Below are positions 30,341-49,745 of a stretch of 64,000 nt of DNA, piece by piece (position 1 is the stretch's first letter; every line of letters starts with the position of its first letter). The DNA is from Sphingomonas limnosediminicola (GTDB lineage Bacteria; Pseudomonadota; Alphaproteobacteria; Sphingomonadales; Sphingomonadaceae), in assembly GCF_039537965.1 (NCBI RefSeq), contig NZ_BAABBM010000001.1, forward strand, positions 2,765,501 to 2,829,500, in the 5' to 3' direction. A program made the position numbers and the translations under genes. The notes under the pieces were generated by a model. The model searched no databases. It saw only the letters and a program-made list of their open reading frames with translations, and was not told the DNA's origin.

Positions 30341-30400
30341 TTTTGGGTCGAAAGCTGCCACTGCACTAGTGGCAGGACTAGGTTGAAAGCGGCGATTAGC
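30341..30400. repeat. Dispersed palindromic repeat (copy 1)
   Basis: Two half elements: TTTGGGTCGAAAGCTGCCACT and, after CTAGTGGCAG, a degenerate AGGTTGAAAGCGGCGATTAGC unit. First copy of the family whose core is AATGGGTCGAAA between short inverted arms. Confidence 0.7.
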
Positions 30401-30453
30401 CGTGGTCTTAAGCGCGACAGTCCTTGGGCGATCCTTGAACTAACAAGACGCGA

Positions 30454-31509
30454 TCAATGTCCGGACGAAGCAGCCAACGCGGAATCTACCGGCTGGTTAG
30501 GACGGAATAGATCGGCGCGTGCCTCGCCGGAGACCTCGATCGTGCCCTTGAGTCCTTTCTCCACGCGAGAAAGCGCGTGATCGACAAGGAAGAATTTGCC
30601 TGGAACTGCCGGCTTGAACTCGACGACGGCCGCGCCGCCTGGCGGGACGGTAATCGTCTGGACGTTGCCGACTGCAGGTGCGTCGAATGAACCGTACGGC
30701 AAGGCGGAGTCGAAGATCCCACCTATGATGTGGAAGCTCGAGTCCTTGTCTGGACCGCCATCGCCGAAGAAAATGCGTACGGTTTCGCCGGTCTTCGCCT
30801 TGAGCGGCTTGCGCGCTAGACCGTCCACAGCGCCATTGAATACCATGTAATCCGGCTGTTCGGCGATCAGCTTGTCGATGCTCTGCGTAAGCTCGCCCTT
30901 CGTTCCGTTTGGCTGCTCAGTGTAGATTTCGCCCTGCATGACGTAATATTCGTGATCGACCTTCGGCAGCCCCTGTCCGGGTTCGACCAGGATCATCCCG
31001 TACATCCCGTTAGCGATGTGCTGCGCTGCCATCGGTACGGCGCAATGGTAGACGTAAAGGCCTGGGTGCAGCGCCTTGAACGTGAAGCCTTTGGCCTCGC
31101 CGGGCCTCGCCATGGTGGCGACTGCGCCGCCGCCGGGACCACTGACTGCGTGCAGATCGATGTTGTGCATCATCCCGCTAGTGCCGTCGTTTTTCAAGTT
31201 GACGACAACGGTGTCACCGACGCGCACCCTTATGAACGGCCCTGGGACCTTTCGATTGTAGGTCCAGTAATCGTAGGTCGTGCCGTCATCGAGACGCCCG
31301 GTAATTTCGACGGTCTCAAGATTGACGGTCACCGTCGCTGGAGTCCGACGGGCGAGCGGGCCGGGTAGGTCGGCCGGATCGCGGACGATATCGGCGGCAT
31401 TGCTGACCGGTGCGGCAGGCTGAACAGCTGGCCCTTCGGCGGCGAAGGCCGGCACGGCAAGTAAAAGCGCAGCAACACTAGCTAAAAGAAGCTGTCGATG
31501 GGGTTTCAT
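30454..31509 (-). CDS. nirK: Copper-containing nitrite reductase
   Basis: 351 residues with a signal peptide ending AFAAE. Two cupredoxin domains. Type 1 copper ligands are His115, Cys156, His164 and Met169; type 2 ligands His120 and His155 plus the His in FFLVDHALSR from the neighbouring subunit. The catalytic Asp118 and the second-sphere His in SFHIIGG are present. It reduces nitrite to nitric oxide in the periplasm. It follows the HiPIP gene by 44 bases, so the HiPIP is a probable electron donor. The quinol NO reductase 1.5 kb away would remove the product. Confidence 0.95.
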   Translation of the reverse strand: MKPHRQLLLASVAALLLAVPAFAAEGPAVQPAAPVSNAADIVRDPADLPGPLARRTPATVTVNLETVEITGRLDDGTTYDYWTYNRKVPGPFIRVRVGDTVVVNLKNDGTSGMMHNIDLHAVSGPGGGAVATMARPGEAKGFTFKALHPGLYVYHCAVPMAAQHIANGMYGMILVEPGQGLPKVDHEYYVMQGEIYTEQPNGTKGELTQSIDKLIAEQPDYMVFNGAVDGLARKPLKAKTGETVRIFFGDGGPDKDSSFHIIGGIFDSALPYGSFDAPAVGNVQTITVPPGGAAVVEFKPAVPGKFFLVDHALSRVEKGLKGTIEVSGEARADLFRPNQPVDSALAASSGH

Positions 31510-31553
31510 TACTTCAATCCTCCTCGAAGGCGCGTATCGATTTCAGGATACAC

Positions 31554-31835
31554 TCAGCCCTTCGGCGCGTAGAGCACGCACCATCCCGCGGGGCTCACTG
31601 ACCCCTCAACCTGCTGGCAGGACGTTGGCGCTTCCCAAAGCGCACACGTCTGACAACGCTGTCCCGATTTCGGAACCGGTTGATAGTGCGCCTGCTGCTG
31701 AGTGAACTTCTTTTGTGCCGCAGAACTCGTCGTCGGCACGCTGACTGCGAAAATCGCACCGGTCCCGACTGCAGCGATGCTCAGGAAGTCACGGCGAGAC
31801 ACTCGCTCACCGTGGGTTTTTCTATCGCCCAACAT
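31554..31835 (-). CDS. High-potential iron-sulfur protein (HiPIP)
   Basis: 93 residues. A Tat signal (SRRDFLSIAAVGTGAIF) leads to a small mature domain with four cysteines at 61, 64, 73 and 86 (C-x2-C-x8-C-x12-C), the [4Fe-4S] ligands of HiPIPs, ending with the usual GWCVLYAPKG. HiPIPs carry single electrons in the periplasm. Position directly upstream of nirK on the same strand suggests it donates to nitrite reductase. A degenerate CCGTA-type box (31879-31893, minus strand) lies 43 bases upstream. Confidence 0.9.
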   Translation of the reverse strand: MLGDRKTHGERVSRRDFLSIAAVGTGAIFAVSVPTTSSAAQKKFTQQQAHYQPVPKSGQRCQTCALWEAPTSCQQVEGSVSPAGWCVLYAPKG

Positions 31836-32096
31836 GACAACTCCTACAACGTCACTTGTCGAGACGAGAGTGCGCCAGTCGGGTCAGGTACGGAATAAGT
31901 AGTTTATCTTATCTCTTTTGGTGCTGCCGCTCTCCGATGCTTTGCAGCAGCCCGCATACCTTCGCATCCAGCGCTGGCAATACTGTTGGACAGAGATTTG
32001 AAGAGACGGCTTGGGACATGGTTCGTCCATATTCCGCGACACTCGGCGACCCTTGTGTCTGCAAGGCCTACCGCGGTCCCTATCGGGTAGTTGCAG

Positions 32097-32139
32097 AAAT
32101 GGGTCGAGAGCTGCCGGGCAGGTTCGGGTGGAAAGCGCA
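32097..32139. repeat. Dispersed palindromic repeat (copy 2)
   Basis: AAATGGGTCGAGAGCTGCC followed by GGGCAGGTTCGGGTGGAAAGCGC; double copy of the core with inverted CTGCC/GGCAG arms. Located at the 3' end of the Crp/Fnr gene. Confidence 0.65.
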
Positions 32140-32161
32140 ATTTACGGGCGGCTGAAGAAGA

Positions 32162-32866
32162 TCAGCCATCAGATCCGTCGCCAATTCGCTTGAGCTCAGT
32201 CGGTTTAATGATGGAGATGCGTTGTCTACTCGAGGCCAGGATTCCGCACCGCTGCCAGGCAGACATCGTCCTGCTAGCAGTATGAAGTGTTGTTGCGGAC
32301 ATCGCCGCTATGTCCTTCCGGGCTAACGGCATCAGCATTTCAATGCCTCCATCAATCCGCGGTTCGCTTCCCTTTCGGGCTAATCGGAGGAGCGCGTTCG
32401 CGATGCGCGGTTCAGCGCGTTGCGTCGAGATCTCCCGCACCCGCTCCTGCAAATCTGCCAGCCGGCGAGCGGCTACCGCCATGAGGTTCATCGCGATGGA
32501 AGGGTACTGGTCGATCAGTTGACGGAGTTGAGCTTCGGTCCAGCTCAACTCGACAGCGTCCGCAGCGGCGATCGCATCGGCTGGGTACCCCCTCTCGGTA
32601 AACAGCGCGAACGATCCAAATACCTCGCCCGGTCCGACGAAGCGTACGACCGAGAGCCCGCCGTCTGCGCCCGCCTGCAAAATCCGAACCCAGCCAGAAA
32701 GTAGCACATGGAAGCGCGTAGGCCGGTCACCCTGGTGGAAGACCGGCTCCCCCTTGAAGAGAAGGCGTCGGAGGGCACTCCTGGCACATTGCATCTGGGC
32801 GGCATCGTCCAGGTCTGCAAACACACTTACAGTCGCGAGTTCGCTGCTCTCATGCCGGACGGTCAT
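32162..32866 (-). CDS. Crp/Fnr-family regulator, NnrR/Dnr-like
   Basis: About 234 residues from the ATG at 32866 (GAGGAG upstream); an in-frame start at 32944 would run through the palindrome in the promoter and is rejected. The effector domain shows LFKGEPVFHQGDRPTRFHVLLSGWVRI and GPGEVFGSFALF. The recognition helix is in MPLARKDIAAMSATTLHTASRTM. No Fnr-type N-terminal Cys cluster is present, in agreement with NnrR/Dnr proteins that respond to NO. It is divergent from the NO reductase, with the palindrome at 32915-32932 in between. Confidence 0.85.
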   Translation of the reverse strand: MTVRHESSELATVSVFADLDDAAQMQCARSALRRLLFKGEPVFHQGDRPTRFHVLLSGWVRILQAGADGGLSVVRFVGPGEVFGSFALFTERGYPADAIAAADAVELSWTEAQLRQLIDQYPSIAMNLMAVAARRLADLQERVREISTQRAEPRIANALLRLARKGSEPRIDGGIEMLMPLARKDIAAMSATTLHTASRTMSAWQRCGILASSRQRISIIKPTELKRIGDGSDG

Positions 32867-32914
32867 TTTGACACTCCTCGGTTCCTGCAGACTCGAGCGG
32901 GGGAGTGCACGGTA

Positions 32915-32932
32915 GTTTGCGCTAGCGCAAAC
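32915..32932. promoter_or_regulatory. Perfect palindrome, candidate NnrR/Dnr operator
   Basis: GTTTGCGCTAGCGCAAAC, an 18-bp perfect palindrome containing TTG-N8-CAA, the general Crp/Fnr/NnrR consensus. It is centred about 60 bases from both the regulator and the NO-reductase start codons, so one site could serve both promoters. Confidence 0.7.
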
Positions 32933-32983
32933 TCGTCGGGCCATGAAATCGTATAGCAGGGCAACCCTTGACGGGAGTAGTCC

Positions 32984-35398
32984 ATGTCGGAAGCACGTAA
33001 CGAAAGCGCACCTCGAGACCTCGCTTCCTCAGTTGATCCCGTCAGTGACATTCTGAAGTGGATACTGCTCATCGTCGCAGTAATCTGTTTCGGCCTCCTC
33101 GGCTGGGCGACGATCCAAACTTACGAACAGGCGCCTCCGCACCCGCACGTATTCACGGATCGCGCCGGGAACGTTCTGATGACGGCCGACGACATCGTCG
33201 CAGGCAAAGGCGGCTTTCAAAAAGCCGACCTCATGGACTACGGCAGCATCTACGGCATGGGGTCCTACTTCGGCGAGGATTACACCGCGTCGGCACTCGT
33301 CCGCCTCGCCGTGCTTACTAAGCAGGGTCTAACCAAGTCAGGCGCAACGCCACCAGGCACCCCGGCTCCGGCCAATAAGTCGCTCGCCACCACTGGGCCT
33401 GCTGGAACGCCGCCCGAACCCACGACCCCAGCTGCCACGTCGGCTGCGGATGCCCTGGTCGACGCTGCCGCGACGGCCACGATGCAGAAACAGCTTCAGT
33501 CGATTAATCTTACGCAGCCCAAGGTGGTCTTGCCGGACGAGGTGGCGCAGGCGGTCCGTGGTCTGCAGAGCGAGCTCACCAAAAAGCTCAACAGTGAGAA
33601 CCTCTCCGCGGGCTGGGTTCCCGCGAAAAGTCTCGATCCGCAGCTGCGCAAGCAAACTGCAGACTTCATCATCTATTCGGCCATCACGACGGTCGCGCGG
33701 AGGCCGGATCATCCGAACACGTCATGGACCGAGAACTGGCCATACGAGCCATCAGTCGGGAACACGCCTACCACCAATACCTTCCAGTGGACCTGGATCA
33801 GCTTCTGCTTCACCTTTTTTGCAATGGGGTTCGTGCTGTGGCTGTATCGAGCCTATCTCGACCATCCCGACGACGCGCCGATGGAGCGCGGTCTCGCAAT
33901 TTACCGGGCGCTGACGCCAAGTCAGATCAAGACAGGGAAATACTTTCTGGTCGTGGCGCTGGTGTTCCTTGCCTCACAAGGTGCCGGCGCGATCATGGCG
34001 CACTCTTATTATGACCGCGCGACCTTCTATGGCGTGCAACTCAATTATATCCTGCCATTCAATTTCCTCAGGAGCTTCCACCTGCAAGCGCCGATTATCT
34101 GGATCGGCCTCGGATGGATTGCGAGCGGTCTGTTCATCGCACCAGCGATCGCTGGCGGCCGCGAAGCCAAAGGACAGGGTTTCCTAGTCGATCTTCTGTT
34201 CTGGGTATCGCTGTTTGTCGTGGGCGCCGCGCTCCTCGGCAACTACCTCGGCATTCAAGGCGTCATTGATCAGGGTTGGTTCTGGTTCGGAAACCAGGGC
34301 CTGTCCTACATTCAGCTCGGCCGCTTCTGGCAAATATTGTTCTTCGTCGCCCTGATGAGTTGGAGCGGGCTCATGTTTCGCGCCCTGTGGCCAAGTCGCG
34401 ACACAGTGCTCGAGGCTACCCGGCAATTTTGGAGCGGGAAGATCAGACTTGAGCATCTGATCTGGGCAGCGACGATCAACGTCGCCGTCCTTTACATCTT
34501 TGGGATGATCCCGCTGACCGGTATCGAGAAAAGCTTCACGATCACCGACTTCTGGCGTTGGTGGGTCGTCCATCTCTGGGTCGAGCAATCGTTCGAGTTC
34601 TTCGCCGTCGCGATGAGTGCCTACCTGTTGATGTCGCTCGGTCTCGTTTCACGCAAGCTTGCAGAGCGCTCGGTCTATCTCGAACTTATCCTCATCTTCC
34701 TCGGCGGCGTGCTCGGCACGGGCCATCACTTGTATTGGGGCGGCGGTCCCGGAATGTGGGTTCCGCTAGGGTCGATGTTCTCCTTCATCGAAGTTCTGCC
34801 GCTAGTGCTTCTAATCCTGGAAGCGATATCGCAGCATCGTTTGATCAAGGGCAGCGCGAGCTTTGATTATGGTCTCGCCTACCTCTACATCCTCGGCTCC
34901 GCCTTCTGGAATTTTGTCGGCGCCGGCGTGTTCGGGGGCGGGACACTGAATGCACCGCTCGTCAATTATTATGAGCACGGCACCTTCCTGACTCTCAATC
35001 ATGCTCACACCTCCTTGTTTGGAGCGTTTGGTCTGCTCGCCCTGGGCCTGATTTACTTTTGCCTCAGGTATCGCGCGGGGCCAGAAGCGGAGTTCAATGA
35101 AACTCCCGGTCGTATCGCTTTCTGGCTCTATAATCTCGGCCTCGGGATGTGGATATTCCTGCACTTCTTCCCCATTGGCTGGCCGCAACTCAATGCCGTG
35201 TTCGAGCACGGCTACGCATGGGCGCGCAGCCAGGCATTTTATGATCAGACGCTCTTCTGGCAGTGGATGCGCTTGCCTGGCGACGTTGTGTTCTCCGCGG
35301 GCGGGCTGCTGATGAGCTGGGATTTCATTGTCAAACTGCGCAAGGGACGCGGCCTTGAAGAACCACGGGGACGATTAGCCACAGTCCCTGCCGAGTAG
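32984..35398 (+). CDS. norZ: Quinol-dependent nitric oxide reductase
   Basis: 804 residues. The N-terminal extension (fused NorC-like region without haem c) marks the quinol type. The catalytic NorB-like part has about 12 helices and the haem/non-haem iron ligands in WWVVHLWVEQSFEFFA and GTGHHLYWGGG, and the later NHAHTSLFGAFG. It reduces 2 NO to N2O with electrons from quinol. A Pro/Thr/Ala-rich stretch at residues about 118-165 lies in the periplasmic extension and looks like a species-specific insertion. Followed by cupin and NnrS genes in a likely operon. Confidence 0.93.
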   Translation: MSEARNESAPRDLASSVDPVSDILKWILLIVAVICFGLLGWATIQTYEQAPPHPHVFTDRAGNVLMTADDIVAGKGGFQKADLMDYGSIYGMGSYFGEDYTASALVRLAVLTKQGLTKSGATPPGTPAPANKSLATTGPAGTPPEPTTPAATSAADALVDAAATATMQKQLQSINLTQPKVVLPDEVAQAVRGLQSELTKKLNSENLSAGWVPAKSLDPQLRKQTADFIIYSAITTVARRPDHPNTSWTENWPYEPSVGNTPTTNTFQWTWISFCFTFFAMGFVLWLYRAYLDHPDDAPMERGLAIYRALTPSQIKTGKYFLVVALVFLASQGAGAIMAHSYYDRATFYGVQLNYILPFNFLRSFHLQAPIIWIGLGWIASGLFIAPAIAGGREAKGQGFLVDLLFWVSLFVVGAALLGNYLGIQGVIDQGWFWFGNQGLSYIQLGRFWQILFFVALMSWSGLMFRALWPSRDTVLEATRQFWSGKIRLEHLIWAATINVAVLYIFGMIPLTGIEKSFTITDFWRWWVVHLWVEQSFEFFAVAMSAYLLMSLGLVSRKLAERSVYLELILIFLGGVLGTGHHLYWGGGPGMWVPLGSMFSFIEVLPLVLLILEAISQHRLIKGSASFDYGLAYLYILGSAFWNFVGAGVFGGGTLNAPLVNYYEHGTFLTLNHAHTSLFGAFGLLALGLIYFCLRYRAGPEAEFNETPGRIAFWLYNLGLGMWIFLHFFPIGWPQLNAVFEHGYAWARSQAFYDQTLFWQWMRLPGDVVFSAGGLLMSWDFIVKLRKGRGLEEPRGRLATVPAE

Positions 35399-35423
35399 AC
35401 AGATTGCCAATTGCGTCCGGCCG

Positions 35424-35453
35424 CCAAGCCAGCTTCCACCTCGCGGCACGTTG
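35424..35453. repeat. Degenerate copy of palindromic repeat, minus orientation
   Basis: Read on the minus strand, TGCCGCGAGGTGGAAGCTGGC keeps the arm and GGTGGAAGC parts of the dispersed repeat. It sits in the short gap between the NO reductase and cupin genes. Confidence 0.35.
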
Positions 35454-35512
35454 GTCCGGCATCCATGCCGCTTGAGGTTTCAGTGCGAAATTGAGCAAGA
35501 GAGTTAAAACCG

Positions 35513-35833
35513 ATGGCCCTCCACCACCTTGCACCGGGCGAGAAATTCCCACTCCTGTCTACTGCTGCGACGGGCGGACGAAAGACGAGGGCACTTGTCA
35601 AAACCGACCGGTTTGAAGTGGTGCAACTCGTGCTTAACGCCCGTGACGAAATCTCCGGACACCCCGTGCCCGGATACACGATATTACAATGCATCGAAGG
35701 AGCGGTGTCACTTAGGACTCCGGAGGATGTGCGGCTGAATATAGGTGAGTGGCTCTACCTCGCTAGGGCTCAGAAGTATTCCCTAAGCGCCATCGAGGAT
35801 AGCTCGCTGCTGCTAACCATCCTGTTCGAGTGA
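35513..35833 (+). CDS. Small cupin-domain protein
   Basis: 106 residues forming a single cupin barrel: FEVVQLVLNARDEISGHPVPGYTILQCIEG and the second half LNIGEWLYLARAQKYSLSAIEDSSLLLTILFE. The usual metal-binding His residues are mostly missing (only HPVPG remains), so it may not be an enzyme. Its stop overlaps the possible GTG start of nnrS, and it follows norZ; small cupins are recurrent in NO/nitrite clusters. Role unknown. Confidence 0.75.
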   Translation: MALHHLAPGEKFPLLSTAATGGRKTRALVKTDRFEVVQLVLNARDEISGHPVPGYTILQCIEGAVSLRTPEDVRLNIGEWLYLARAQKYSLSAIEDSSLLLTILFE

Positions 35834-37077: not shown

Positions 37078-37100
37078 TGTCCTAGCGCGAAGATCGGCTG

Positions 37101-37167
37101 ATGTCCGAAATGGGTCGTTAGCGGCCACTCGGCTAGCGGCAGGAATGGGTGGAAAGCGGACATTAGC
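37101..37167. repeat. Dispersed palindromic repeat (copy 3, double)
   Basis: Outer arms ATGTCCG (37101-37107) and CGGACAT (37157-37163) enclose two cores, AAATGGGTCGTTAGCGGCCACT and GGCTAGCGGCAGGAATGGGT. It is the clearest composite element and lies between the convergent nnrS and protease-like genes. Confidence 0.75.
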
Positions 37168-37173
37168 TATCCG

Positions 37174-40167: not shown

Positions 40168-40321
40168 TCAAGGAAGGGTTGGGGAGCGACGCAATCGCCC
40201 GATTACCAACGATCTGCAATGGGGGGGGCTCGGCTCCTCTACTACTTAGAGGCCGATGCTGCTTTCATTTTTCCAAAGCATGCAAGCGGCCACTACGAAG
40301 ATGAGAAATGCTGCACTGCAA

Positions 40322-40350
40322 GAGTCCGCAATGGGTCGAAAACGGACGCT
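40322..40350. repeat. Dispersed palindromic repeat (copy 4)
   Basis: GTCCG (40324-40328) and CGGAC (40343-40347) flank CAATGGGTCGAAAA. The element supplies the last bases of the esterase gene, whose TAG stop is at its edge. Confidence 0.75.
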
Positions 40351-41233
40351 ACCGGTCTGAGCAATTTAGGTTGAACCCGTACCCGATCGGTGGAGGGGCT
40401 AGAGGCGGCAGCAGGTATTGAACCGCTTGGGGCGTCAGCTGCTGGTAGATTGTTGCGTGCGTGAGATTTGGACGGGCCATTGTGCAGTAAGTCAGCCCCC
40501 GTTGCTTCAACAAAGAGACCAGGCGCTTAATCGCGGCGGCATCATCCAGCTGTTCCTTGGCTGCCGCCAGCATCAAACGATGACCTTTCTGCCTGCCATT
40601 CAATTTTGCGGCAGCCGAATTTGAAAGAGACTCCTTGTCCCACCAGAGGCTAGGATCCACAGCCGCGTAACCATCGAAAAGCGACGGCTCGACAAGGTAC
40701 GTTTCGGTCACGAACAAGCCCGCCAAAGACTCCCCCAGAACAACGTCATGTCCGTCGCCGCGATAGGTGCGCTCAATTAGGGGTTTCACCTCCTTACGGA
40801 TGAACTCGCGAAACTTGGCTGAAGAGCCCGCTGTCGGGTAACGCTTCACCAGCTCGGGATCGGCTGTCGGGCCCACAAGTTCCTTGCGTCGGTCCTTTGT
40901 CTCAAGGCCGACAACAATGGCTTCGGCCGACCGGCCCCACATTGCGCCTAGCTGCACCACGCCAGCCACGTGAAGGAGGTCTTGGTCCAAACCGCCGTCG
41001 AGCAGATATAGGACCGGATATCGTCGCAACGGATCTTTGCTGTAGCTCGCAGGCAGAACGACATTGACCGTCCGCAACTCATGGAGCGTCTTTGATTGCA
41101 AGCTGTAACTCGAACCGATTTGGATCGGGACCTGCGACGCTTCCGAGCCGGGCTGAGCTGTTGCCGCGCCTGCAAGAATGAAGCCGCAAACCAGGGCAAC
41201 GCACAAGCGTGTTGTGACGAACGTGAAATCCAT
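40349..41233 (-). CDS. Exported esterase-type alpha/beta hydrolase
   Basis: About 294 residues (start at the ATG at 41233 or 41248). A signal peptide ends at GAATAQ. The fold is that of the esterase D/Fes group: RYPVLYLLDGG strand, nucleophile Ser in VVLGESLAGLFV (G-x-S-x-A), and a late LTHATIY His. Related proteins hydrolyse siderophore, feruloyl or small ester bonds; the substrate cannot be told. The C-terminus (PLAPPPIGYGFNLNCSDR) runs up to a dispersed repeat, which may have set the stop codon. Confidence 0.75.
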   Translation of the reverse strand: MDFTFVTTRLCVALVCGFILAGAATAQPGSEASQVPIQIGSSYSLQSKTLHELRTVNVVLPASYSKDPLRRYPVLYLLDGGLDQDLLHVAGVVQLGAMWGRSAEAIVVGLETKDRRKELVGPTADPELVKRYPTAGSSAKFREFIRKEVKPLIERTYRGDGHDVVLGESLAGLFVTETYLVEPSLFDGYAAVDPSLWWDKESLSNSAAAKLNGRQKGHRLMLAAAKEQLDDAAAIKRLVSLLKQRGLTYCTMARPNLTHATIYQQLTPQAVQYLLPPLAPPPIGYGFNLNCSDR

Positions 41234-41260: not shown

Positions 41261-41313
41261 GGCGCAATGGTCGAAAGCTGCCGTGCAGGAATGGGTCGCG
41301 AGCTGCCACAAGC
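41261..41313. repeat. Dispersed palindromic repeat (copy 5, double)
   Basis: CAATGGTCGAAAGCTGCCG and GCAGGAATGGGTCGCGAGCTGCC in tandem; inverted CAG/CTG arms. Lies in the divergent promoter region of the esterase and PEP-CTERM genes. Confidence 0.7.
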
Positions 41314-42091: not shown

Positions 42092-42141
42092 GGTCCGTAC
42101 TGTTGGCGGAGCTGGCTTGCGGGCTTTTACCAGGCCATCGG

Positions 42142-42561: not shown

Positions 42562-42875
42562 GGGTGTCGCAGGCGATCGACGGACCGGCCAACCAGCCAG
42601 AAGAGTGACGCCGTCACAGCGACGGCTGGAACATAGTACAAGGCATGATCCATGAGATAGCCATGACCCTCTGGCATGAGGACGGAAGTCTCACCCAGCG
42701 CATAGGCCAATATTAGGTCGACCGCCGTGACTGGCAGGGTCGCCACAAACAGGCCCAGGTTCGCGAGCCCATCGTGGTTGGTGTTGGCGAAATCAATCCA
42801 CCCGTAGACCGCGAAAGCTATGTAGAGCGCTGGCAGAATGTAGCGCAGACGCCCCTTGTGCCTCTGACCCTTCAC
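42558..42875 (-). CDS. Small membrane protein coupled to DUF3592 gene
   Basis: About 105 residues from the GTG at 42875, chosen because GGGGGAGG lies six bases upstream; the frame opens at a GTG at 42902. Three hydrophobic segments (YILPALYIAFAVYGWIDFA, GLFVATLPVTAVDLILAYA, ALYYVPAVAVTASLFWLVG) suggest a small polytopic protein. It shares a four-base overlap with the DUF3592 gene, so the two are an operon. I do not recognise the family. Confidence 0.65.
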   Translation of the reverse strand: MKGQRHKGRLRYILPALYIAFAVYGWIDFANTNHDGLANLGLFVATLPVTAVDLILAYALGETSVLMPEGHGYLMDHALYYVPAVAVTASLFWLVGRSVDRLRHP

Positions 42876-42949
42876 TGGTGCCTCCCCCTTCGACGTGAAC
42901 ACCTACCCGTTCCCGGTTTACGTTAGGTTCCGGCTTCCCGGAATGGCTC

Positions 42950-42995
42950 GGTAGCGGCAAGTTTGGGTCGAAACGGAATGGGTGGAAGCTGACGC
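42950..42995. repeat. Dispersed palindromic repeat (copy 6)
   Basis: GGTAGCGGCAAGTTTGGGTC then GAAACGGAATGGGTGGAAGC; double core with degenerate arms. Confidence 0.6.
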
Positions 42996-43125
42996 GGATG
43001 CCGCGCTCTCAGCGCCACAAAGGTCGTCCAGGATCCGCTGTTTGAAGCGACGCGCAAGGCAAACTGAAGCCTTACCTGGCATTTCGTGATAGTGACGGGG
43101 TCCCCTATGGAATTGGGAGTCGGCT

Positions 43126-43422
43126 ATGTCGCGTATCATCGTCGCCGCAATCGCCCTCTGCGCTGCTGCTGCGGCCCCAGCGCAAACCATCAGCATCGAA
43201 AACTCTAATGCTTCCGTGAAGCCGCCGCCGCTTCCAGAAAACAATCTCGAGCAAGTCGTCTGCGAGCGCGTGATGCGGACCGGCAGTCGACTGGCAATCG
43301 ACAAAGTCTGCCTGACGGTCGCCGAGTGGAAGGAGAAGCGCGACGTTCAGCGCTGGGATTTCGAGCGGGTTCAGCGGGTCGTAAACCAGGAGCCTTCCGA
43401 TCTGGCGGGATATACCCGTTAG
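43126..43422 (+). CDS. Small exported protein with CERV motif
   Basis: 98 residues. A signal peptide ends AAAPAQ. The mature part has VVCERVMRTGSRLAIDKVC and LTVAEWKEKR: two Cys 18 residues apart followed by a W-containing helix. This is a recurring layout among small secreted proteins of sphingomonads that have no known function. The ATG follows GGAGTC at a good distance. Flanked by dispersed repeats on both sides. Confidence 0.7.
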   Translation: MSRIIVAAIALCAAAAAPAQTISIENSNASVKPPPLPENNLEQVVCERVMRTGSRLAIDKVCLTVAEWKEKRDVQRWDFERVQRVVNQEPSDLAGYTR

Positions 43423-43496
43423 TCGGGAACTCCCAAGTCGAACTCGACCTCCAAACTCGGCTCCCTTGGACATCCTGGCCACCGGGACAAATCGAG

Positions 43497-43560
43497 TCTG
43501 TCTGGGGTCGGACACTGCCGCCGCACGCTGGCGGCAGGGATGGGTCGAAAGCTGCCATTA
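43497..43560. repeat. Dispersed palindromic repeat (copy 7, double)
   Basis: A degenerate unit GTCTGTCTGGGGTCGGACAC (43497-43516) and a clean one, GGCAG (43533-43537) and CTGCC (43552-43556) around GGATGGGTCGAAAG. Confidence 0.7.
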
Positions 43561-43571
43561 GGGGGGAGCTA

Positions 43572-44099
43572 TCAAGCAGACAGCCGCTCGTAGTCGCTTC
43601 CCCTTACCCATGTCCTGAACCGGTCGAATGCAGGAACATCCCCGGCTCGCGGCGTGCGCTGCTCCATCCTTTCGGCGAGCCATTGCAGCCACTCGAACAA
43701 GTTCGGCCAGCCGTTCTGCCTTCGCTCTTCGATATACGGCCGTAGCTTTTGCCAGCACAGCACTGTCACCCCACGATAGGAATCGGCATACATTTCAATT
43801 GGCACGTGACCTCGCGCAACTAAGGGGCCCAGACTTTCGAAGAGCGCAAGCACACCCATCACCGCACCGAAATTCTTCCCGAGACTGCGTGTGAGTTGCG
43901 CCTCAGTTAACCCGTCCGGCAGACCATGGATCAACATCAATGCTTCGGCGGCCTGAGGTGCCTGCAGCGGTCGCAGTAACTCGATGCCCGCTTGGACTTC
44001 GCGCTGCACGCGAAGCTGCCGAAGCTGAACCAGGCCGAAGACCACTCCGATGATAACTGCCAAGGTTTCCAAGGCTTGCAGGATCAGGTCCCAAGACAT
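43572..44099 (-). CDS. DUF4760-like membrane-anchored protein
   Basis: About 175 residues from the ATG at 44099 (MSWDLILQALETL); the frame opens at 44171. One N-terminal transmembrane helix (ETLAVIIGVVFGLVQL) is followed by a cytoplasmic helical domain with RQLRVQREVQAGIELLRPLQ and later WQKLRPYIEERRQ, the pattern of DUF4760 proteins. Function unknown. Repeats flank it on both sides. Confidence 0.65.
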   Translation of the reverse strand: MSWDLILQALETLAVIIGVVFGLVQLRQLRVQREVQAGIELLRPLQAPQAAEALMLIHGLPDGLTEAQLTRSLGKNFGAVMGVLALFESLGPLVARGHVPIEMYADSYRGVTVLCWQKLRPYIEERRQNGWPNLFEWLQWLAERMEQRTPRAGDVPAFDRFRTWVRGSDYERLSA

Positions 44100-44197
44100 C
44101 TGTCGGTGTCTCCGTTGCGGTCTTCGATGGCCTATCAGAAGCTGCCTCGTCCGCAACGAGTTCTCGAACACCTAGTCCCAGCCTGCTCCGCACCAAG

Positions 44198-44243
44198 CTG
44201 ACACTAGGCTAGCGGCAGCTTTGGGTCGGAAGTGGCTACCCGC
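44198..44243. repeat. Dispersed palindromic repeat (copy 8)
   Basis: GCTAGCGGCAGCTTTGGGTC then GGAAGTGGCTACCCGCT; degenerate core with inverted GGC/GCC arms. Confidence 0.6.
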
Positions 44244-44257
44244 TATAGCGGCACACA

Positions 44258-45517
44258 TCAGGCGAGAAATCGACTAAGCTCGTTCCACAGTTCCGGCCAA
44301 CCCTCGTCCGTAATCTGCGGGAGGTGGTTTCTTCCCTCCAACGGCACGAACTCGGCACCTGGAATGCTTGACGCGATAAAGCGTCCTGCGTCGAACGACA
44401 CTACCTGATCGTCCTTGCTGTGCATGACCAGCGTCGGTGCCCGGATTTTCGCGAGCGACGCCGTCACATCGAAGTCGCCCAGCATCTCGATATAGCGGAG
44501 CGCCATGCTCGGGGTGGAGCTCTGCTCCTGAATCTTGTTCCACCAGTCCGTCTGCGCTCGTGTCGCGCCGGGGAAGTACTGGCTGGTGAATATTTTGCGC
44601 AAGCCAGGTGGCAGATTGCTGTCGCCAGATCTGGCGAGCACGCAAAGTGCCTCCCAGCTGTCTACGAAGTCGCGGTCTGGCGAAAATCGCCAACCGCGGG
44701 CGAACCCGTTGACGAGGACGAGCCTCTTGACCCGCTCGGGATAGCGTGCCGAAAATGCGATCGCTGTTGGACATCCCTGCGAGATCGCGAACAGGTCAAA
44801 TTGTACCAAGCCGGCCGCGTTCACGACAGCGACCAAGTCTTCAACGAGCAGATCGAATTTCAAATCGGTTATTTCGCGAGCCGACATTCCGGTGCCGCGT
44901 TGGTCGTAGCGAACGAGCGTGTTGCGGCTAGCTAACTCTTCGATCCAGTTGCGCCACAACGGGTTTTCCAGTTCATGTTCCAGATGGTTATTGCCGTTGG
45001 CCGCCTTCACCAACACGGGTCCATCGCCCAGCAGACCATAGGCAAGAGTCACACCGTCATCTGCACGCGCGAATGTGATGCGCTGACGGCCCCGCACTGG
45101 ACTCTTGCGTGTGACTTCCTTGTCCTTCGGAAGATCAATCGGCCCGAGCGACAGTTCCAATTCGTCTGGTAATCCACCGATTGGGCTCGCCAGCCAACGA
45201 GAAAGATCGATTGTGTGGAACTGGCGGAACCCGAGGGGCGGGGTCGTGCCATCAATAGTCAACGGGACGAGCTTTGCCGCTTCGATCGCTGAAGTGGCCT
45301 CGTCACGAACCCAAGGCGAGGTTTTAGACTGTGTCGACCACAGGACGATGACCTTCTCGCTTGAACCAAGCGCCTCCTCGATTTCGCGGCTGTATTCTGC
45401 TCCGCCCGTTATCCGGCGATCCCACCAGACCGAGTGACCCGCTTGCTCAAGCGCTTCAGCGAGAGCTTCGGCAACCGCCACGTCGCTTCGCGCGTAACTG
45501 ATGAAGATTGTCGCCAA
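44258..45517 (-). CDS. TIR domain fused to alpha/beta hydrolase
   Basis: 419 residues. Residues 1-130 are a TIR domain: FISYARSDVAVAEALAEALE (box 1), WWDRRITGG (BB loop), and SPWVRDE with Glu73 at the NADase catalytic position. Residues 145-419 are an alpha/beta hydrolase: YDQRGTGMS, nucleophile Ser246 in AISQG (Ala replaces the first Gly of G-x-S-x-G), acid at Asp369/Asp370, His398 in EGRNHLP. The hydrolase resembles those fused to bacterial cyclase or LuxR-type domains. TIR domains can scaffold signalling or cleave NAD+; which applies here is unknown. A second, paralogous TIR gene lies 0.8 kb away. Confidence 0.85.
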   Translation of the reverse strand: MATIFISYARSDVAVAEALAEALEQAGHSVWWDRRITGGAEYSREIEEALGSSEKVIVLWSTQSKTSPWVRDEATSAIEAAKLVPLTIDGTTPPLGFRQFHTIDLSRWLASPIGGLPDELELSLGPIDLPKDKEVTRKSPVRGRQRITFARADDGVTLAYGLLGDGPVLVKAANGNNHLEHELENPLWRNWIEELASRNTLVRYDQRGTGMSAREITDLKFDLLVEDLVAVVNAAGLVQFDLFAISQGCPTAIAFSARYPERVKRLVLVNGFARGWRFSPDRDFVDSWEALCVLARSGDSNLPPGLRKIFTSQYFPGATRAQTDWWNKIQEQSSTPSMALRYIEMLGDFDVTASLAKIRAPTLVMHSKDDQVVSFDAGRFIASSIPGAEFVPLEGRNHLPQITDEGWPELWNELSRFLA

Positions 45518-45561
45518 GGCTTTGCTCAGTATTTGAGATCGGCAGAAGCATCTCCCGTTTC

Positions 45562-45597
45562 GCTAATGTCTGCAATGGGTCGAAAGCCGCCACTAGC
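45562..45597. repeat. Dispersed palindromic repeat (copy 9)
   Basis: GCTAATGTCTGCAATGGGTC then GAAAGCCGCCACTAGC; outer GCTA/TAGC arms. Sits between the divergent TIR-hydrolase and GST genes. Confidence 0.75.
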
Positions 45598-45634
45598 TCA
45601 AGAGAGATTTTGAGTGGGCGGCTGACATGCTGCT

Positions 45635-46303
45635 ATGGTCAGCGGCATGGCCAATCTCGCCCAGCCCGTTCGACTTTTTGATAGCTTTGGGCTTGCGCCA
45701 CGAATGGTCCGCTTTTTCTTGCTTGAGAAGCACATCGATATCCCCAGGTACCAAATAGACCTTCTTCTCGGCGAGAATCGCGACGAGGAGTTCCTAAAGC
45801 TCAACCCGTCAGGACAAACCCCTGCTCTAGAGCTCGAGGACGGCACAATCCTGGCTGAAGCGCCTGCGATTTGCGAATATGTCGAAGAGGCCTGCCAAGA
45901 GCCCGTTCTAATCGGCGAAACCCCATTACAGCGCGCGATCACGCGCATGTGGTGGCGTAGAGTTGAGTTAAACATCTGCCAACCGATGATCATGGGGTAT
46001 TATTTCGGCGAAGGGCTCGAACTGTTCCGGACGCGCACTCGCTGCATCCCCCAAGCAGCCGAGGGGATGAAGGAGCGGGCGCGGGACGGCATGCGCTGGC
46101 TCAACGCGTTGCTTACCGATGAGTGGATCGTCGGCCCTCGCTTTTCAATCGCGGATATGTGCCTCTACGGTTACCTCGACGAACTTGCTGACAAGGGGCA
46201 ACCGTTGCCCGAAGATTGTACGAATGTCAGGCGCTGGTTTAAGGCCGTGAGCACTCGTTCAACCGCCGACCGGAGCGTGTGGAGATTGACCCGGTCAGCA
46301 TGA
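45635..46303 (+). CDS. Glutathione S-transferase family protein
   Basis: 222 residues. The N-terminal thioredoxin-like domain shows RLFDSFGLAPRMVRFFLLEK and the cis-Pro/GSH-binding region NPSGQTPALELEDGTILAEAPAICEY (in two parts, residues about 57-82). The all-helical C-terminal domain follows with FSIADMCLYGYLDEL, the conserved N-capping Asp. Substrate unknown. Start at 45635 or the in-frame ATG at 45647. It lies between the two TIR genes but is transcribed in the opposite direction. Confidence 0.85.
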   Translation: MVSGMANLAQPVRLFDSFGLAPRMVRFFLLEKHIDIPRYQIDLLLGENRDEEFLKLNPSGQTPALELEDGTILAEAPAICEYVEEACQEPVLIGETPLQRAITRMWWRRVELNICQPMIMGYYFGEGLELFRTRTRCIPQAAEGMKERARDGMRWLNALLTDEWIVGPRFSIADMCLYGYLDELADKGQPLPEDCTNVRRWFKAVSTRSTADRSVWRLTRSA

Positions 46304-46343
46304 AGCGGCGCTCTGCTGAGTACTACCGAACACAGACGTGCTG

Positions 46344-47432
46344 TTAGAGTCGGTTGGTAGATTCAATGGCCTCGATACACTTGCTCGCTCGGCCGAGCAT
46401 TGCCTGATAGGCGCGTGTGTCGTGTATCCGCTCCCACGCCGGGTCAGCCTGAAGAAGCGCCAAGTGAATACGGTTCTGCGCCGCCTCCACGAATGGTTCT
46501 ATCACATCTAAGGCTGCTTCCGGCTCTTCCAGGAACTGGACCAGGGTCGCCGCAAGATTATAGCGCATACGCAGATTTCCGGGATCGACGCTCAGCGCTT
46601 TCCGAATCCATTTTCTAGCGCGGTCCCGATGACCAAGTGCTGCCAAGCCCTTGGCCCCCGATGCGAAAGCCGCCCCATTGGAAGAAGCCGCTGCAATCGC
46701 CTGTTCAGCGCGCTCAACCGTGAGCGTTGCAGCACGATCCATACCATCATCATCTTTGATTGCCCGGTAACAAGAAACCAGCATCGCCGGGCTTTCGTGA
46801 TCGCTCTTTGAGTGCAACGCCGCCTTCTCATAGAACGCGATCGCTTCGACCGCTCTCCCTTGAACATAATGAAGGGAGCCGGCTTCCTTGTTCAGGTCGA
46901 TATTGTCAGGGTCCAGAACCAAGGCTGCCTGGATTTCTCGGACGGCACTCTTGAAGTCACCTCGCTCTTGGAGATTGCGCGCCTTTGCAACGATGGCGAC
47001 CGCAGACGACGTGCTCGCCTGCGGAAGATCGCGTGTGGCGGAAGGCGAGAGACCGGCATCACACTTGGCGGCAATCGACTTCAAGATGTTGTCTAACGCG
47101 TTTTCGAGACCATGATCCGTCGGAATGGTCTGGAATTGTCTGAAGCCTAGCGGTGGCTTGCAGTCGTCCAGCGAGACTGGCAGCAGCCGATCCGTGTCAC
47201 GACCTTCGGCGGCCTCGTCGAGAACCCACGCGGAAGCGATCGCGTCCTTCGACCAGAGAACGAGGACAACGTCGGCAGCTGTAAGGGCTTGCTCAATTTC
47301 GGCTGCAAATCTCGATCCTCCGCTGATGTGCTTATCCCACCAGACGTCGTGATCGCGTTCACTCAGCGAAGCAGAGATCACCTTCGCGGCGTCTGCGTCC
47401 TTACGCGAGTAACTGAGGAAGATTCGCGCCAC
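46344..47432 (-). CDS. TIR domain protein with TPR repeats
   Basis: About 362 residues from the GTG at 47432 (the frame opens at 47498). The TIR domain (ARIFLSYSRKDADAAKVISA, WWDKHISGG, SAWVLDE) aligns without gaps to that of the TIR-hydrolase through Glu73, and both share PPLGFRQFQTI/PPLGFRQFHTI, so they are paralogues. A linker of about 40 residues leads to TPR-like helical repeats (LQERGDFKSAVREIQAALVL, YVQGRAVEAIAFYEKAALH, ALGHRDRARKWIRKALSVDP). TIR-TPR proteins may act as scaffolds or sensors; function unknown. Confidence 0.8.
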   Translation of the reverse strand: MARIFLSYSRKDADAAKVISASLSERDHDVWWDKHISGGSRFAAEIEQALTAADVVLVLWSKDAIASAWVLDEAAEGRDTDRLLPVSLDDCKPPLGFRQFQTIPTDHGLENALDNILKSIAAKCDAGLSPSATRDLPQASTSSAVAIVAKARNLQERGDFKSAVREIQAALVLDPDNIDLNKEAGSLHYVQGRAVEAIAFYEKAALHSKSDHESPAMLVSCYRAIKDDDGMDRAATLTVERAEQAIAAASSNGAAFASGAKGLAALGHRDRARKWIRKALSVDPGNLRMRYNLAATLVQFLEEPEAALDVIEPFVEAAQNRIHLALLQADPAWERIHDTRAYQAMLGRASKCIEAIESTNRL

Positions 47433-47507
47433 AGCTGCTCGCCGCTTAGGGCTTTGGCGGGTTAGACGGTCGGTACAACATGGCGGAGAATTTCGCACTC
47501 GAGGCCG

Positions 47508-47561
47508 ATGTCCGCAATGGGTCGAAAGTCGCCGCGGCAGGTCGGGATGGAAAGCTACCCT
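47508..47561. repeat. Dispersed palindromic repeat (copy 10, double)
   Basis: ATGTCCGCAATGGGTCGAAA with GTCGCC, then GGCAGGTCGGGATGGAAAGC. Lies between the divergent TIR-TPR and YdeI-like genes. Confidence 0.7.
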
Positions 47562-47606
47562 TGGAACTGACGTGGTTGCGAGAACTGATGTGTCGGCTAT
47601 GCCACT

Positions 47607-48194
47607 TTGGTGACTGAGCAGCGCGGCGGTTTACCTGTTCTTGCTTTCCGCGATGGAGAGAGTTTCGAAGAGTGGCTGGATCAGCAACCTGCGGATGCCG
47701 CCGGGGCATGGGTGAAGCTCCCGAAGCAGTCGGCTAGCACACCTGGCATGACAAAAGCTGAAGCGATCGACGCGGCACTTTGTCATGGGTGGATCGACGG
47801 CCAGCTCGACAAATATGACGACCAATATTGGCTCGTCCGTTTCACCCCCAGAAAAGCTCGCAGCAAATGGTCGCAGGTGAACAAGAAGCGGGCGACTGAG
47901 CTGATTGCCGAAGGCCGGATGCGAAGATCAGGCGCTGCACAAATCGAGGCCGCAAGGAGAGACGGCAGGTGGGACGCCGCCTACGCGCCTGCAAGTTCCG
48001 CGAAAGTCCCGGCTGATCTTCAGGATGCACTCGACGCCAATCCGCAGGCGGCGAAGTTCTTCGCAACGTTGAAGGGGACGAACCGGTACGCGATCCTCTA
48101 CCGCATCGGCTCGGTCAAACGGCCGGAGACGCGCGCCAGGAAGATCGCCGAATATGTCTCCATGCTGGAGCGCGGCGAGACCATTCACGGTTGA
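47607..48194 (+). CDS. YdeI/OmpD-associated family protein
   Basis: 195 residues; start at TTG 47607 or GTG 47610. The family core is seen in SFEEWLDQQPADAAGAWVKL, EAIDAALCHGWIDGQ, YWLVRFTPRKARSKWSQVN and NRYAILYRIGSVKRPETRARK. Proteins of this group are linked by annotation to bacteriocin or polymyxin tolerance, but the biochemical role is not known. A dispersed repeat precedes it and another follows. Confidence 0.85.
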   Translation: MVTEQRGGLPVLAFRDGESFEEWLDQQPADAAGAWVKLPKQSASTPGMTKAEAIDAALCHGWIDGQLDKYDDQYWLVRFTPRKARSKWSQVNKKRATELIAEGRMRRSGAAQIEAARRDGRWDAAYAPASSAKVPADLQDALDANPQAAKFFATLKGTNRYAILYRIGSVKRPETRARKIAEYVSMLERGETIHG

Positions 48195-48217
48195 AGTTAC
48201 GACTTCGGAGACCTGCA

Positions 48218-48250
48218 AATGTCTGCCATCGGCGCAAAGCAGACACTAGC
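48218..48250. repeat. Dispersed palindromic repeat (copy 11, variant stem)
   Basis: TGTCTGC (48220-48226) and GCAGACA (48239-48245) form a perfect 7-bp stem around CATCGGCGCAAA. Compared with GTCCG/CGGAC copies both arms changed together. Confidence 0.75.
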
Positions 48251-48306
48251 TTCCAGCGCGAGATGCGCCCAACTGTAGCAGCCGCCTTCGCGGCCGGAGG
48301 TGGGAC

Positions 48307-48807
48307 ATGAACGTCTTGCGATGTCATCGGTTTGCGTGGGCGGTTTCGGCAACAATAATCTTTACGCAGCCGTCACTGGCCGCAATTCCAGCCCCCGCGG
48401 ATCAGACCGTCGATGAGCGGGCGGTCTTGGCGGCAGACGCGCAGCAGCGGCTGGCTGTGGCATCAAAGGACATTGTTGCGATTGGCAGGATCTCAGATCC
48501 GCATTTGCGCGTGAACGCACCCAATAACCGCATTCTGACGCGAGAAGACTTGATGAGAATGGTTGCGTCGGGCGAAATCCGAAACGAGGTGTTCGAGCGC
48601 ACTCCCGAGGATGTGGTCATCACAGGCGATGTCGGTGTGGTGATGGGCCACGAGGTGGTCGTCGCAGGCGCGGCGAGCGAGCAGGCCCGCATGTATGGTC
48701 GCAAGACCCTGAACCGACGCTACACCAACGTTTACATTCGTACTGGCGAAGGTTGGCGGCATCTCGCCCGGCACGCCAACATCATGGTGAGTGTACCTTC
48801 ACAGTGA
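48307..48807 (+). CDS. Exported NTF2-like (SnoaL/DUF4440) protein
   Basis: 166 residues with a signal peptide ending SLAAIP. The mature domain has the helix-sheet order of NTF2-like proteins: DERAVLAADAQQRLAVASKD, ISDPHLRVNAPNNRILTRED, and the closing sheet TLNRRYTNVYIRTGEGWRHLARHANIM. DUF4440-type exported proteins are common in sphingomonads and of unknown function. AGGTGGGAC precedes the ATG. Confidence 0.75.
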   Translation: MNVLRCHRFAWAVSATIIFTQPSLAAIPAPADQTVDERAVLAADAQQRLAVASKDIVAIGRISDPHLRVNAPNNRILTREDLMRMVASGEIRNEVFERTPEDVVITGDVGVVMGHEVVVAGAASEQARMYGRKTLNRRYTNVYIRTGEGWRHLARHANIMVSVPSQ

Positions 48808-48986
48808 TGTCCGCTTGGGTGGAACTCAGAATGGCAATTGAGCACATAGTCGAACTTGTTGCGGACCACGTACTGGACTGACCCGCAAAGGCACTTACCT
48901 CGTAGCTGTTTGGCACGAGGTCACGTTACCCGTGCCGGCGATGTCTGAAATGGCTGGTACGCGGACATCAACGTTGCCGGGAGCAC
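48808..48986. other. Gap with degenerate repeat copies
   Basis: Contains a decayed copy beginning ATGTCCGCTTGGGTGGAACT at 48808 and a clean copy (next entry). No gene is seen. Confidence 0.4.
48940..48969. repeat. Dispersed palindromic repeat (copy 12)
   Basis: GATGTCTG (48940-48947) and CGGACATC (48962-48969) flank AAATGGCTGGTACG; one G-T mismatch in the arms. Confidence 0.7.
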
Positions 48987-49085
48987 TTAGCCTCGCAGCC
49001 AAGCTCGGGCATAAATTGCAGCCCCAACGAAGAAAGGGACGGCAAGAAGTAGTAACGGCCACACGGTGGTAAGTTGCATGGGCAT
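48987..49085 (-). CDS. Putative 32-residue single-helix membrane peptide
   Basis: MPMQLTTVWPLLLLAVPFFV continues to a GAAIYARAWLRG ending: one transmembrane helix with a basic tail. GAGG lies five bases before the ATG. The frame stays open upstream to a GTG at 49127, which would add a charged amphipathic N-terminus of 14 residues. Not a family I recognise; support is the ribosome-binding site and membrane-like composition only. Confidence 0.4.
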   Translation of the reverse strand: MPMQLTTVWPLLLLAVPFFVGAAIYARAWLRG

Positions 49086-49354
49086 CAAGGCCTCGATTTC
49101 GGCACGAACCCTATCTCGCTGCCTCACGACAGTGCATTGGGTATTGTACGTAACTGAGGCGCGAAAGCAGTTTCAGTCTGAAGCTAGATTTTCCGGAGGT
49201 CCGCAATCGGAAATCGTCGAGGCGCCGATTTAGGCACTACTCCGTATTTCGCCATCGGATCTGAGTGTTATACGCGAAACCATCGCCGTGCCGAGCATCA
49301 GCGCGACGGCGACTGAGAGACATACGAGAGCTCCCGCTGTGACGGAGCTTCATT
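49086..49354. other. Intergenic region, no other gene seen
   Basis: A short GGTCCGCAATCGGAAATC segment near 49198 resembles a decayed repeat core. The promoter of the 70-residue gene at 49355 should lie here. Confidence 0.3.
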
Positions 49355-49567
49355 ATGTCCGCGCCAGACCATCACAAGATTATGCATGAGATCGTCACCC
49401 ACTTCGAGACGCTTGCGGCAACGATTGAGCATGCAATTGTAGCCTTTGCTGACGACGAAAGGGGCATCGTCAACCTTGCTGCGTTGCAGCGGGCAAAAGA
49501 TGCTGCTCACAGCGGCGCCCAACAGGCCCGCAACGCAACTTCAGTAATGAGAAGGGCACTCGACTGA
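49355..49567 (+). CDS. Small helical protein, 70 residues
   Basis: Unrecognised. GGAG precedes the ATG at about nine bases. The product is amphipathic and helical (HKIMHEIVTHFETLAATIEH, NLAALQRAKDAAHSGAQQAR) with no signal or membrane segment. It lies at the right border of the repeat-rich accessory region. Confidence 0.5.
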   Translation: MSAPDHHKIMHEIVTHFETLAATIEHAIVAFADDERGIVNLAALQRAKDAAHSGAQQARNATSVMRRALD

Positions 49568-49681
49568 ATGCTGGAAGCCGGGGCTAGGGCCGTCGTTGAA
49601 TGTTCCTCGCGGGCGTCGCCCTGGCCGTTTTGGCAGTGACTGTCGCTGTCCTCTAGCCTTCGCTCACCCCGCTTGAGGCGA

Positions 49682-49745
49682 GATGTGGCTTCGGGTCGAA
49701 AGTCGCCCTCGCTAGCGGCAGGAATGGGTCGAAACCTGCCACAAG
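49682..49745. repeat. Dispersed palindromic repeat (copy 13, double)
   Basis: TTCGGGTCGAAAGTCGCC then GCTAGC and GGCAGG (49717-49722) with CCTGCC (49735-49740) around AATGGGTCGAAA. The last clear copy of the family in the window. Confidence 0.75.

Follow-up and report, generated by a model that had tools for sequence, protein, structure and literature searches.

The window analyzed here is a stretch of 64,000 nucleotides from Sphingomonas limnosediminicola, spanning C1:2765501-2829500 of a single-contig genome of 2,848,166 bp (G000), and between 30 and 50 kb it contains a run of short sites that lie between genes. Each site consists of two short inverted arms on either side of a non-palindromic core (AATGGGTCGAAA and variants). 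The original prediction described these sites as a dispersed palindromic repeat family of at least 13 intergenic copies, some of them double, whose arms change in concert under selection for a hairpin. The analysis reported here leads to a different reading, in which each 36-nt copy is probably the junction of two mobile gene cassettes with inverted ends, exchanged at GGGT[C/G]G, the core, through the action of a recombinase.

The Run of Sites in the Window

All the sites listed below were called with a weight matrix trained on 69 copies, which finds 16 copies of 36 nt between 30330 and 49746, in agreement with the earlier figure of at least 13. Their arms are of two types, A (GGCAG) and B (GTC[C/T]G), and are extended by TTT/AAA in some copies. 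The features of the run, in window coordinates, are the following.

30330..30400 (+), double site, copies 30330-30365 and 30365-30400 at a spacing of 35; left end of the run
30454..31509 (-), multicopper-oxidase-like gene, single-gene segment between sites
32086..32121 (+), site copy with core AATGGGTCGAGA
37097..37167 (+), double site, copies 37097-37132 and 37132-37167
40318..40353 (+), site copy, both arms B-type
41278..41313 (+), weak site copy (score 12.6)
42950..42985 (+), site copy; a second core at 42977-42988 overlaps
42986..43510 (+), putative cassette, duplicate at C1:1234671-1235198 (92.6%, 528 bp)
43527..43562 (+), site copy
43552..44232 (+), putative cassette with a DUF4760 gene (43572-44171, -), duplicate at C1:1239698-1240380 (95.3%, 683 bp)
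44208..44243 (+), site copy
44258..45517 (-), gene for a TIR domain and an alpha/beta hydrolase, single-gene segment
45562..45597 (+), site copy with mixed arms (B left, A right)
45635..46303 (+), glutathione S-transferase-like gene between sites
46344..47498 (-), gene for a TIR domain and TPR, between sites
47504..47565 (+), double site, copies 47504-47539 and 47530-47565 at a spacing of 26
47607..48194 (+), OmdA/YdeI-like gene; an 82% match in another genome of the genus (G010) also lies between two sites
48215..48250 (+), site copy with degenerate core, both arms B-type
48236..48824 (+), putative cassette with a DUF4440 gene (48307-48807), duplicate at C1:1409532-1410117 (96.4%, 589 bp)
48937..48972 (+), weak site copy (score 10.8)
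49711..49746 (+), final site of the run

The two TIR-domain genes (44258-45517 and 46344-47498) thus stand in nearby putative cassettes, and gave partial matches to defence TIR profiles. The earlier statement that copies occur only from 30 to 50 kb is nearly true of the window, where one further, weak copy was found at 10525, but not of the genome, of which other zones also carry copies.

Copy Number, Placement and Polarity

Within the window the core and its variants, with up to 2 mismatches allowed, give 16 matches, compared with a mean of 4.09 and a maximum of 10 in 100 shuffled sequences, and the exact core occurs 44 times in the genome (23 forward, 21 reverse), the reversed-pattern control giving none. 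An alignment of 69 copies was obtained from 72 regular-expression hits, three of which were excluded (one intragenic, two beside or overlapping another copy), and a sequence model of these copies has 161 genome matches at E <= 1. The weight matrix, at scores above 8, recognizes 209 copies in 316 kb, that is the window and 20 stretches selected for holding copies, where 0.6 would be expected in shuffled sequence; the model search proposed with the original prediction therefore returned far more copies than chance. The statistics that follow refer to 193 copies, after exclusion of 16 of the 209 that score below 14 and of pairs more than 6,000 bp apart.

The intergenic position noted originally is confirmed, since only 2 of the 193 copies have their centre inside a gene by more than 30 nt, and 191 are not inside genes according to our own simple gene caller. 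Double copies are equally real, with 19 pairs at a spacing of 26 nt and 12 pairs at 35-38 nt. Between the cores of the 26-nt doubles there is often a palindrome, CTGCCGCGGCAG, and these doubles would be cassettes without a gene.

The copies are strongly polar. Neighbouring copies have the same orientation in 154 of 175 pairs, the remainder being 8 convergent and 13 divergent. At C1:1185222, 1227903, 1230995, 2269172 and 2284893, doublets are arranged head to head (- then +, spacing 34-35); at these five places the polarity turns with no recombinase in between, and a recombinase was possibly lost from them.

Polarity does not extend to the genes. By the same simple caller, the 105 segments of 200-2500 bp between copies contain one gene in 69 cases, none in 23, two in 11 and three in 2, and the single genes run against the polarity of the sites in 39 cases and with it in 30. 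Pfam scans of 30 hand-picked proteins out of the 97 encoded in segments, and of 20 open reading frames of the window, revealed contents of an accessory nature: PEP-CTERM proteins, DUF4440, TIR-hydrolase and TIR-TPR proteins, glutathione S-transferases, OmdA, esterases, histidine kinases and a serpin. No Pfam family was found for 5 of the 30 segment proteins scanned.

Arm Matching within Copies and across Segments

The examples listed in the original prediction, in which the arms differ between copies and remain complementary, do match, but they were selected, and no excess of pairing exists over the 69 aligned copies. The arms within a copy pair at 59.7% of positions, against 60.7 +/- 1.1% after shuffling (equalled or exceeded in 423 of 500 shuffles), and their covariation scores 0.168 against 0.183 in shuffled data. 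A hairpin maintained by compensatory changes was accordingly rejected, by the refutation criterion that accompanied the original prediction. The two arm types combine independently within a copy (52 AA, 38 AB, 33 BA and 16 BB, with 54 of the 193 unclassed; odds ratio 0.66, p = 0.28). When copies are divided by their surroundings, the odds ratio is 1.07 in the 122 copies that have no close neighbour and 0.18 (p 0.03), that is mismatched, in the 71 that have one.

Matching is found instead between consecutive copies on the same strand, when the right arm of one copy is set against the left arm of its successor, these being the two ends of the segment that intervenes. In 123 segments longer than 60 bp the identity of these arms is 6.76 of 12 positions, against 6.36 after permutation (z score 3.40), a value reached in 1 of 4000 permutations. 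The pairing of arms in the same copy is flat (z -1.37), as are the four other control pairings, namely left arm with the right arm of the next copy (-0.35), left with left (-0.61), right with right (0.34) and right arm with the left arm of the second copy downstream (-1.79). After five duplicated segments were dropped and arms were permuted within 60-kb zones, 11 of 5000 permutations were as high. The matching across segments is modest and is clearest by arm type (27/12/21/28). No covariation would be expected within a copy, because its left and right arms would belong to different cassettes.

Duplicated Segments and Their Ends

Comparison of the array zones with themselves identified 24 pairs of duplicated segments, in which 30 of the 94 ends fall within 20 nt of the centre of a copy, where 2.4 were expected. 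Seven of these pairs were aligned, and in most of them the homology passes through the left arm and the core of the next copy and then stops, while a start at the AAAGC of the preceding copy is clear only in some of the seven.

Three putative cassettes of the window are duplicated elsewhere in the genome. For 42986-43510, of the four ends of the pair one is at a recognized centre (+2), one is at 18 nt and two are in site-like sequence that was not called. The segment 43552-44232 ends at +7 and +6 nt from the site centres, and its duplicate ends on the right at +6 and on the left without a recognized site. Finally, 48236-48824 starts at the AAAGC of its left site, and its other end falls within the core of a sequence resembling a site (about 48802-48837), which is below the matrix threshold in the window and is called at the place of the duplicate. 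Clean empty sites were not found in relatives, in which DNA queries returned mostly gene-sized matches, and the sharing of segments across species is sparse.

Some further observations concern the window outside the run. The stretch 18711-19849 (1.14 kb), whose nearest window site is 8 kb away, is 90% identical to C1:2260984-2262115, within an array zone. Immediately to the right of the last site, another kind of repeat, about 50-190 bp long, is present in several copies (73-90% alike) at 49787-50600 and recurs at about C1:1219.6k (L050). A match to the small RNA BjrC68 (RF02353, a Bradyrhizobiaceae family) lies at 27975-28047 (+), with 40.8 bits against a gathering score of 39.

The 197-aa Tyrosine Recombinase

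The genome has six PF00589 loci: two encode XerC/XerD-like proteins, three encode integrases of 411-480 amino acids (aa) and one encodes a protein of 197 aa. The gene of the latter, at C1:2258589-2259179, lies where copies in the minus orientation switch to plus. The original suggestion that the non-palindromic core might be the recognition site of a protein or transposase thus gains support, since a tyrosine recombinase gene stands amid the arrangement of the copies; the search for a transposase found this different recombinase and no REP-associated tyrosine transposase (RAYT) in the same genome.

Relatives of the 197-aa protein occur, at 1e-15, in 34 of 61 genomes of the genus. A closer clade, with 67-100% identity, comprises 18 full-length genes, of which 16 gave the loci examined, one per genome (the gene of G022 is outside the count). 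In all 16 loci the copies to the left are in the minus orientation (33) and those to the right in the plus orientation (29), that is 62 of 62, with copies on one side only in two of the loci and with the recombinase gene itself on either strand. A 17th gene of this clade and a gene fragment, both in G010, agree with the divergent layout. Genomes with the closer clade have a median of 48 copies (n = 16), compared with 12 in those without it (n = 45; one-sided p = 2e-4).

In an alignment of 31 sequences to XerD, R48, K76, H145, R148 and Y180 are invariant and H171 is present in at least 90%; together these residues form the R-K-H-R-H-Y catalytic set of tyrosine recombinases. The structure of the recombinase was predicted confidently, with a pLDDT (predicted local distance difference test) of 85.4 and a pTM (predicted template modelling score) of 0.82. 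It has no match to the integron integrase model TIGR02249, whose cut-off is 265 bits and with which two of the PF00589 loci, better fitted by XerC/XerD, score 93.3 and 104.8. With the FimB/FimE families NF007370 and NF007371 it scores 27.4 and 19.3 bits, far below the respective cut-offs of 221 and 222. No sites lie near the XerC/XerD-like genes, an observation that does not bear on binding. The genus also contains a divergent second clade of the recombinase (57-62% identity; L168-L178), mostly without these sites, and in 11 of its loci the flanks showed no clear inverted repeat (the best reached 23 of 36 positions, with 19-22 in shuffles).

Distribution of Sites and Recombinase

Copies of the site are present in 55 of 61 genomes of the genus, from 0 to 122 per genome. 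A stricter pattern matched 20 of 385 genomes sampled from the class, all except G000 with one or two matches; G000 was the only member of the genus in this sample. A 24-nt pattern identified 63 stretches of named genomes, of which 42 are in Sphingomonas, 15 in Pseudomonas and 6 in others, together with two viral contigs. Two of the Sphingomonas stretches (L111 and L122) are on p_unnamed1, a plasmid of Sphingomonas daechungensis of 127,878 bp, and sites borne on plasmids are a possible route for the travel of cassettes. The recombinase has at least 8000 relatives at E <= 0.001, and 392 plasmid records match it at 1e-30. Among 20 named or viral records that have a copy, seven (two sphingomonads, one Brevundimonas and four Pseudomonas) also have the recombinase at 1e-8.

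Outside the sphingomonads the arrangement takes other forms. The recombinase genes of Pseudomonas rubra, P. japonica and Pseudomonas sp. BP8 (60-61% identity) are flanked by inverted weak [T/A]TGGGTCGG sites which point toward the gene, and in P. rubra these are plain at one of three full-length recombinase genes. Some Pseudomonas copies (L073, L077, L109 and others) are in chains of arm, core, hairpin and core that alternate in orientation, unlike the one-way runs of sphingomonads. A clear inverted pair, with TGTCCGC arms and matching at 30 of 36 positions, brackets the recombinase gene of a Bosea plasmid. At the other plasmid loci considered (Acetobacter, Ruegeria, Thauera and Asticcacaulis) the best flanking pairs reach 19-22 of 36 and none is clear, and at the Brevundimonas locus flanking copies are absent or unclear.

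Sites as Probable Cassette Junctions and Alternative Explanations

In the model that we favour, a cassette would be a segment, mostly of a single gene, with a right arm, GC(TGCC or GGAC)ATTAGC, at its start and an inverted left arm, GCTAAT(GGCA or GTCC)GC, at its end, and cassettes would be joined head to tail at the common core. In its build the site resembles a simple tyrosine-recombinase site, since the inverted arms enclose a short and asymmetric centre, GGGT[C/G]G, which determines the polarity. The likely enzyme is the 197-aa recombinase, which consists of a catalytic domain only and whose gene lies between two divergent arrays. If a segment were excised, its ends would join as left arm, core and right arm, an A arm meeting an A arm and a B arm a B arm, in line with the matching observed across segments; its insertion beside another cassette would produce mixed junctions, hence the lack of matching within copies. 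Copy number, polarity, arm matching across segments, duplicate breakpoints, the position of the recombinase and the conservation of its catalytic residues can all be read from the genomes themselves, while cutting in the centre, excision of cassettes as circles with reinsertion, and present activity are what the model would entail. The greater copy number of genomes with the closer clade, and the inverted, weakly scoring sites beside the recombinase genes of three Pseudomonas genomes and the Bosea plasmid, also speak for it.

Several observations weigh against this model. No circle or excised site was seen, and 64 of the 94 ends of duplicates are not near a recognized copy. The genome has one such recombinase and 13 divergent turning points, with many arrays far away from the gene, and four genomes (G014, G457, G032, which is 85% complete, and G452) have 88, 80, 76 and 51 copies, respectively, without this recombinase; among their 19 PF00589 loci two have copies within 1.5 kb, neither of them on both sides. 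In the divergent clade, 12 of 14 loci have no copies nearby and the other two have one each, and 10 of 14 copy-bearing Pseudomonas records have no recombinase match at 1e-8, one more having only a partial one. In 64 loci of other species the matching of cassette ends, permuted within species and excluding species with fewer than three pairs, is a non-significant trend (z 1.51; 228 of 3000), the other pairings lying between -1.27 (within the copy) and 0.01. When these species were pooled, every pairing was positive, including the controls and the within-copy pairing (odds ratio 3.7 for single copies, p 0.002). This is ascribed to the arm composition of each species, because the within-copy z falls to -1.27 once stratified by species, and the pooled test, being confounded, was not used and was replaced by the permutation within species. 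Finally, the exact crossover is ambiguous, as the C/G of the core follows the right arm (odds ratio 5.4) and yet differs between the two copies of one cassette. Its use as a map of the crossover was dropped on these grounds and because it is mostly G beside the recombinase, where 27 of 30 adjoining copies carry G. We conjecture that the latter reflects a fixed site next to the gene, and that a position which follows the right arm and changes between duplicates could lie inside the exchanged strands.

Other explanations were considered. Short, imperfect and intergenic palindromes in high copy number, which vary strongly among related species (0-122) and form doublets as in clusters of repetitive extragenic palindromes (REPs), recall a family of REPs or of miniature inverted-repeat transposable elements, inserted between genes by a transposase acting in trans while the genes stay in place. 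REPs are characterized by a conserved 5' tetranucleotide next to the hairpin. This explanation, put forward originally in its REP/RAYT form, is unlikely: the Y1 transposase PF01797 has no match in the genome at E <= 0.001, whereas the control search was positive in 5 of 14 genomes, the arms are unmatched within a copy and matched across genes, duplicated gene segments terminate in copies, gene segments appear to travel along with them, and the polar runs surround a tyrosine recombinase. Homologous or illegitimate recombination at scattered repeats could also spread the cassettes, with the recombinase as a passenger or a fossil, and the presence of repeats of 36-62 nt beside accessory genes, the four high-copy genomes without the enzyme and the existence of weak, degenerate copies would fit it. 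We consider it improbable in view of the breaks, which, when they fall in copies, are at the core, of the copies pointing away from the recombinase in 16 of 16 loci, and of the terminal inverted arms of each segment, which it would not predict.

The two remaining explanations are weaker. RNA hairpins after each gene, acting as terminators or processing sites, would agree with the intergenic position, and single copies with matching arms could fold; this is very improbable, since covariation is absent, the strand of the gene is independent of that of the site, and an Rfam search of the window gave two matches, none on a copy at gathering scores. It also leaves unexplained the runs of one orientation, the matching of arms across genes and the duplicate ends in copies. 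A divergent true integron would share with the present system a tyrosine recombinase gene beside polar arrays of mostly single-gene accessory cassettes. Integrons are marked by attI and a cassette promoter, Pc, and by attC sites, which have the consensus boxes R' (GTTRRRY) and R'' (RYYYAAC). Here R' or R'' boxes occur in 17 of 193 copies, compared with 9.4% of random stretches, and both boxes in none of the 193; none of the six PF00589 proteins exceeds the cut-off for integron integrases; and the arms match across the gene rather than within the site, which makes an integron hardly credible. The present system further differs from integrons in its catalytic-domain-only recombinase, in arrays on both sides of it, in site arms that would come from two neighbouring cassettes and in genes of both orientations.

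Relation to Known Systems and Significance

Two other systems resemble the one described here. In the Xer/dif system, to which the pdif modules of Acinetobacter plasmids belong, genes are likewise flanked by tyrosine-recombinase sites with a short centre. The pdif sites alternate in orientation, whereas the present ones have mostly one orientation, more than 200 copies in the chromosome and a different sequence, and the XerC/XerD-like genes are not near them. The FimB/FimE invertases are catalytic-domain tyrosine recombinases of about 200 aa acting on short inverted sites, and the 197-aa protein shares with them size, domain content and the weak NF007370 match. It differs in the score, far below the family cut-off, and in being associated with arrays of putative cassettes rather than one invertible switch.

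A search of open-licence papers, as far as their accessible text goes, found integrons, pdif modules, rulB integron-like elements and GInts, with no description of these sites or of their layout. The same holds for the portions consulted of PMC12306157, PMC4741004 and PMC8138268; in the first of them (RepRanger), a table gives 3,055 'REPs' for Erythrobacter cryptus from a permissive search, and no such family appears in that part.

Systems of this kind, in which a tyrosine recombinase moves gene cassettes, are already known. The present one lacks at least one of the tested defining marks of each of integrons, pdif modules and REPs. It is a serious possibility, short of a probability, that it represents a separate cassette platform not descended from integrons, with a catalytic-domain-only recombinase amid two divergent arrays and lox-like double-stranded sites whose half-sites come from neighbouring cassettes. 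Dialects of these sites, each around a related recombinase, would extend across Pseudomonadota (Sphingomonas, Pseudomonas and Bosea) and plasmids, and much of the accessory gene content of these bacteria, TIR-domain proteins included, would reside in the platform. The capture of gene cassettes is known mainly from integrons, and a second solution, based on other sites and on a minimal enzyme, would reveal how platforms of this sort originate. It would also assign a function to the common 'integrase' of about 200 aa, and would let the accessory gene islands of sphingomonads be read cassette by cassette.

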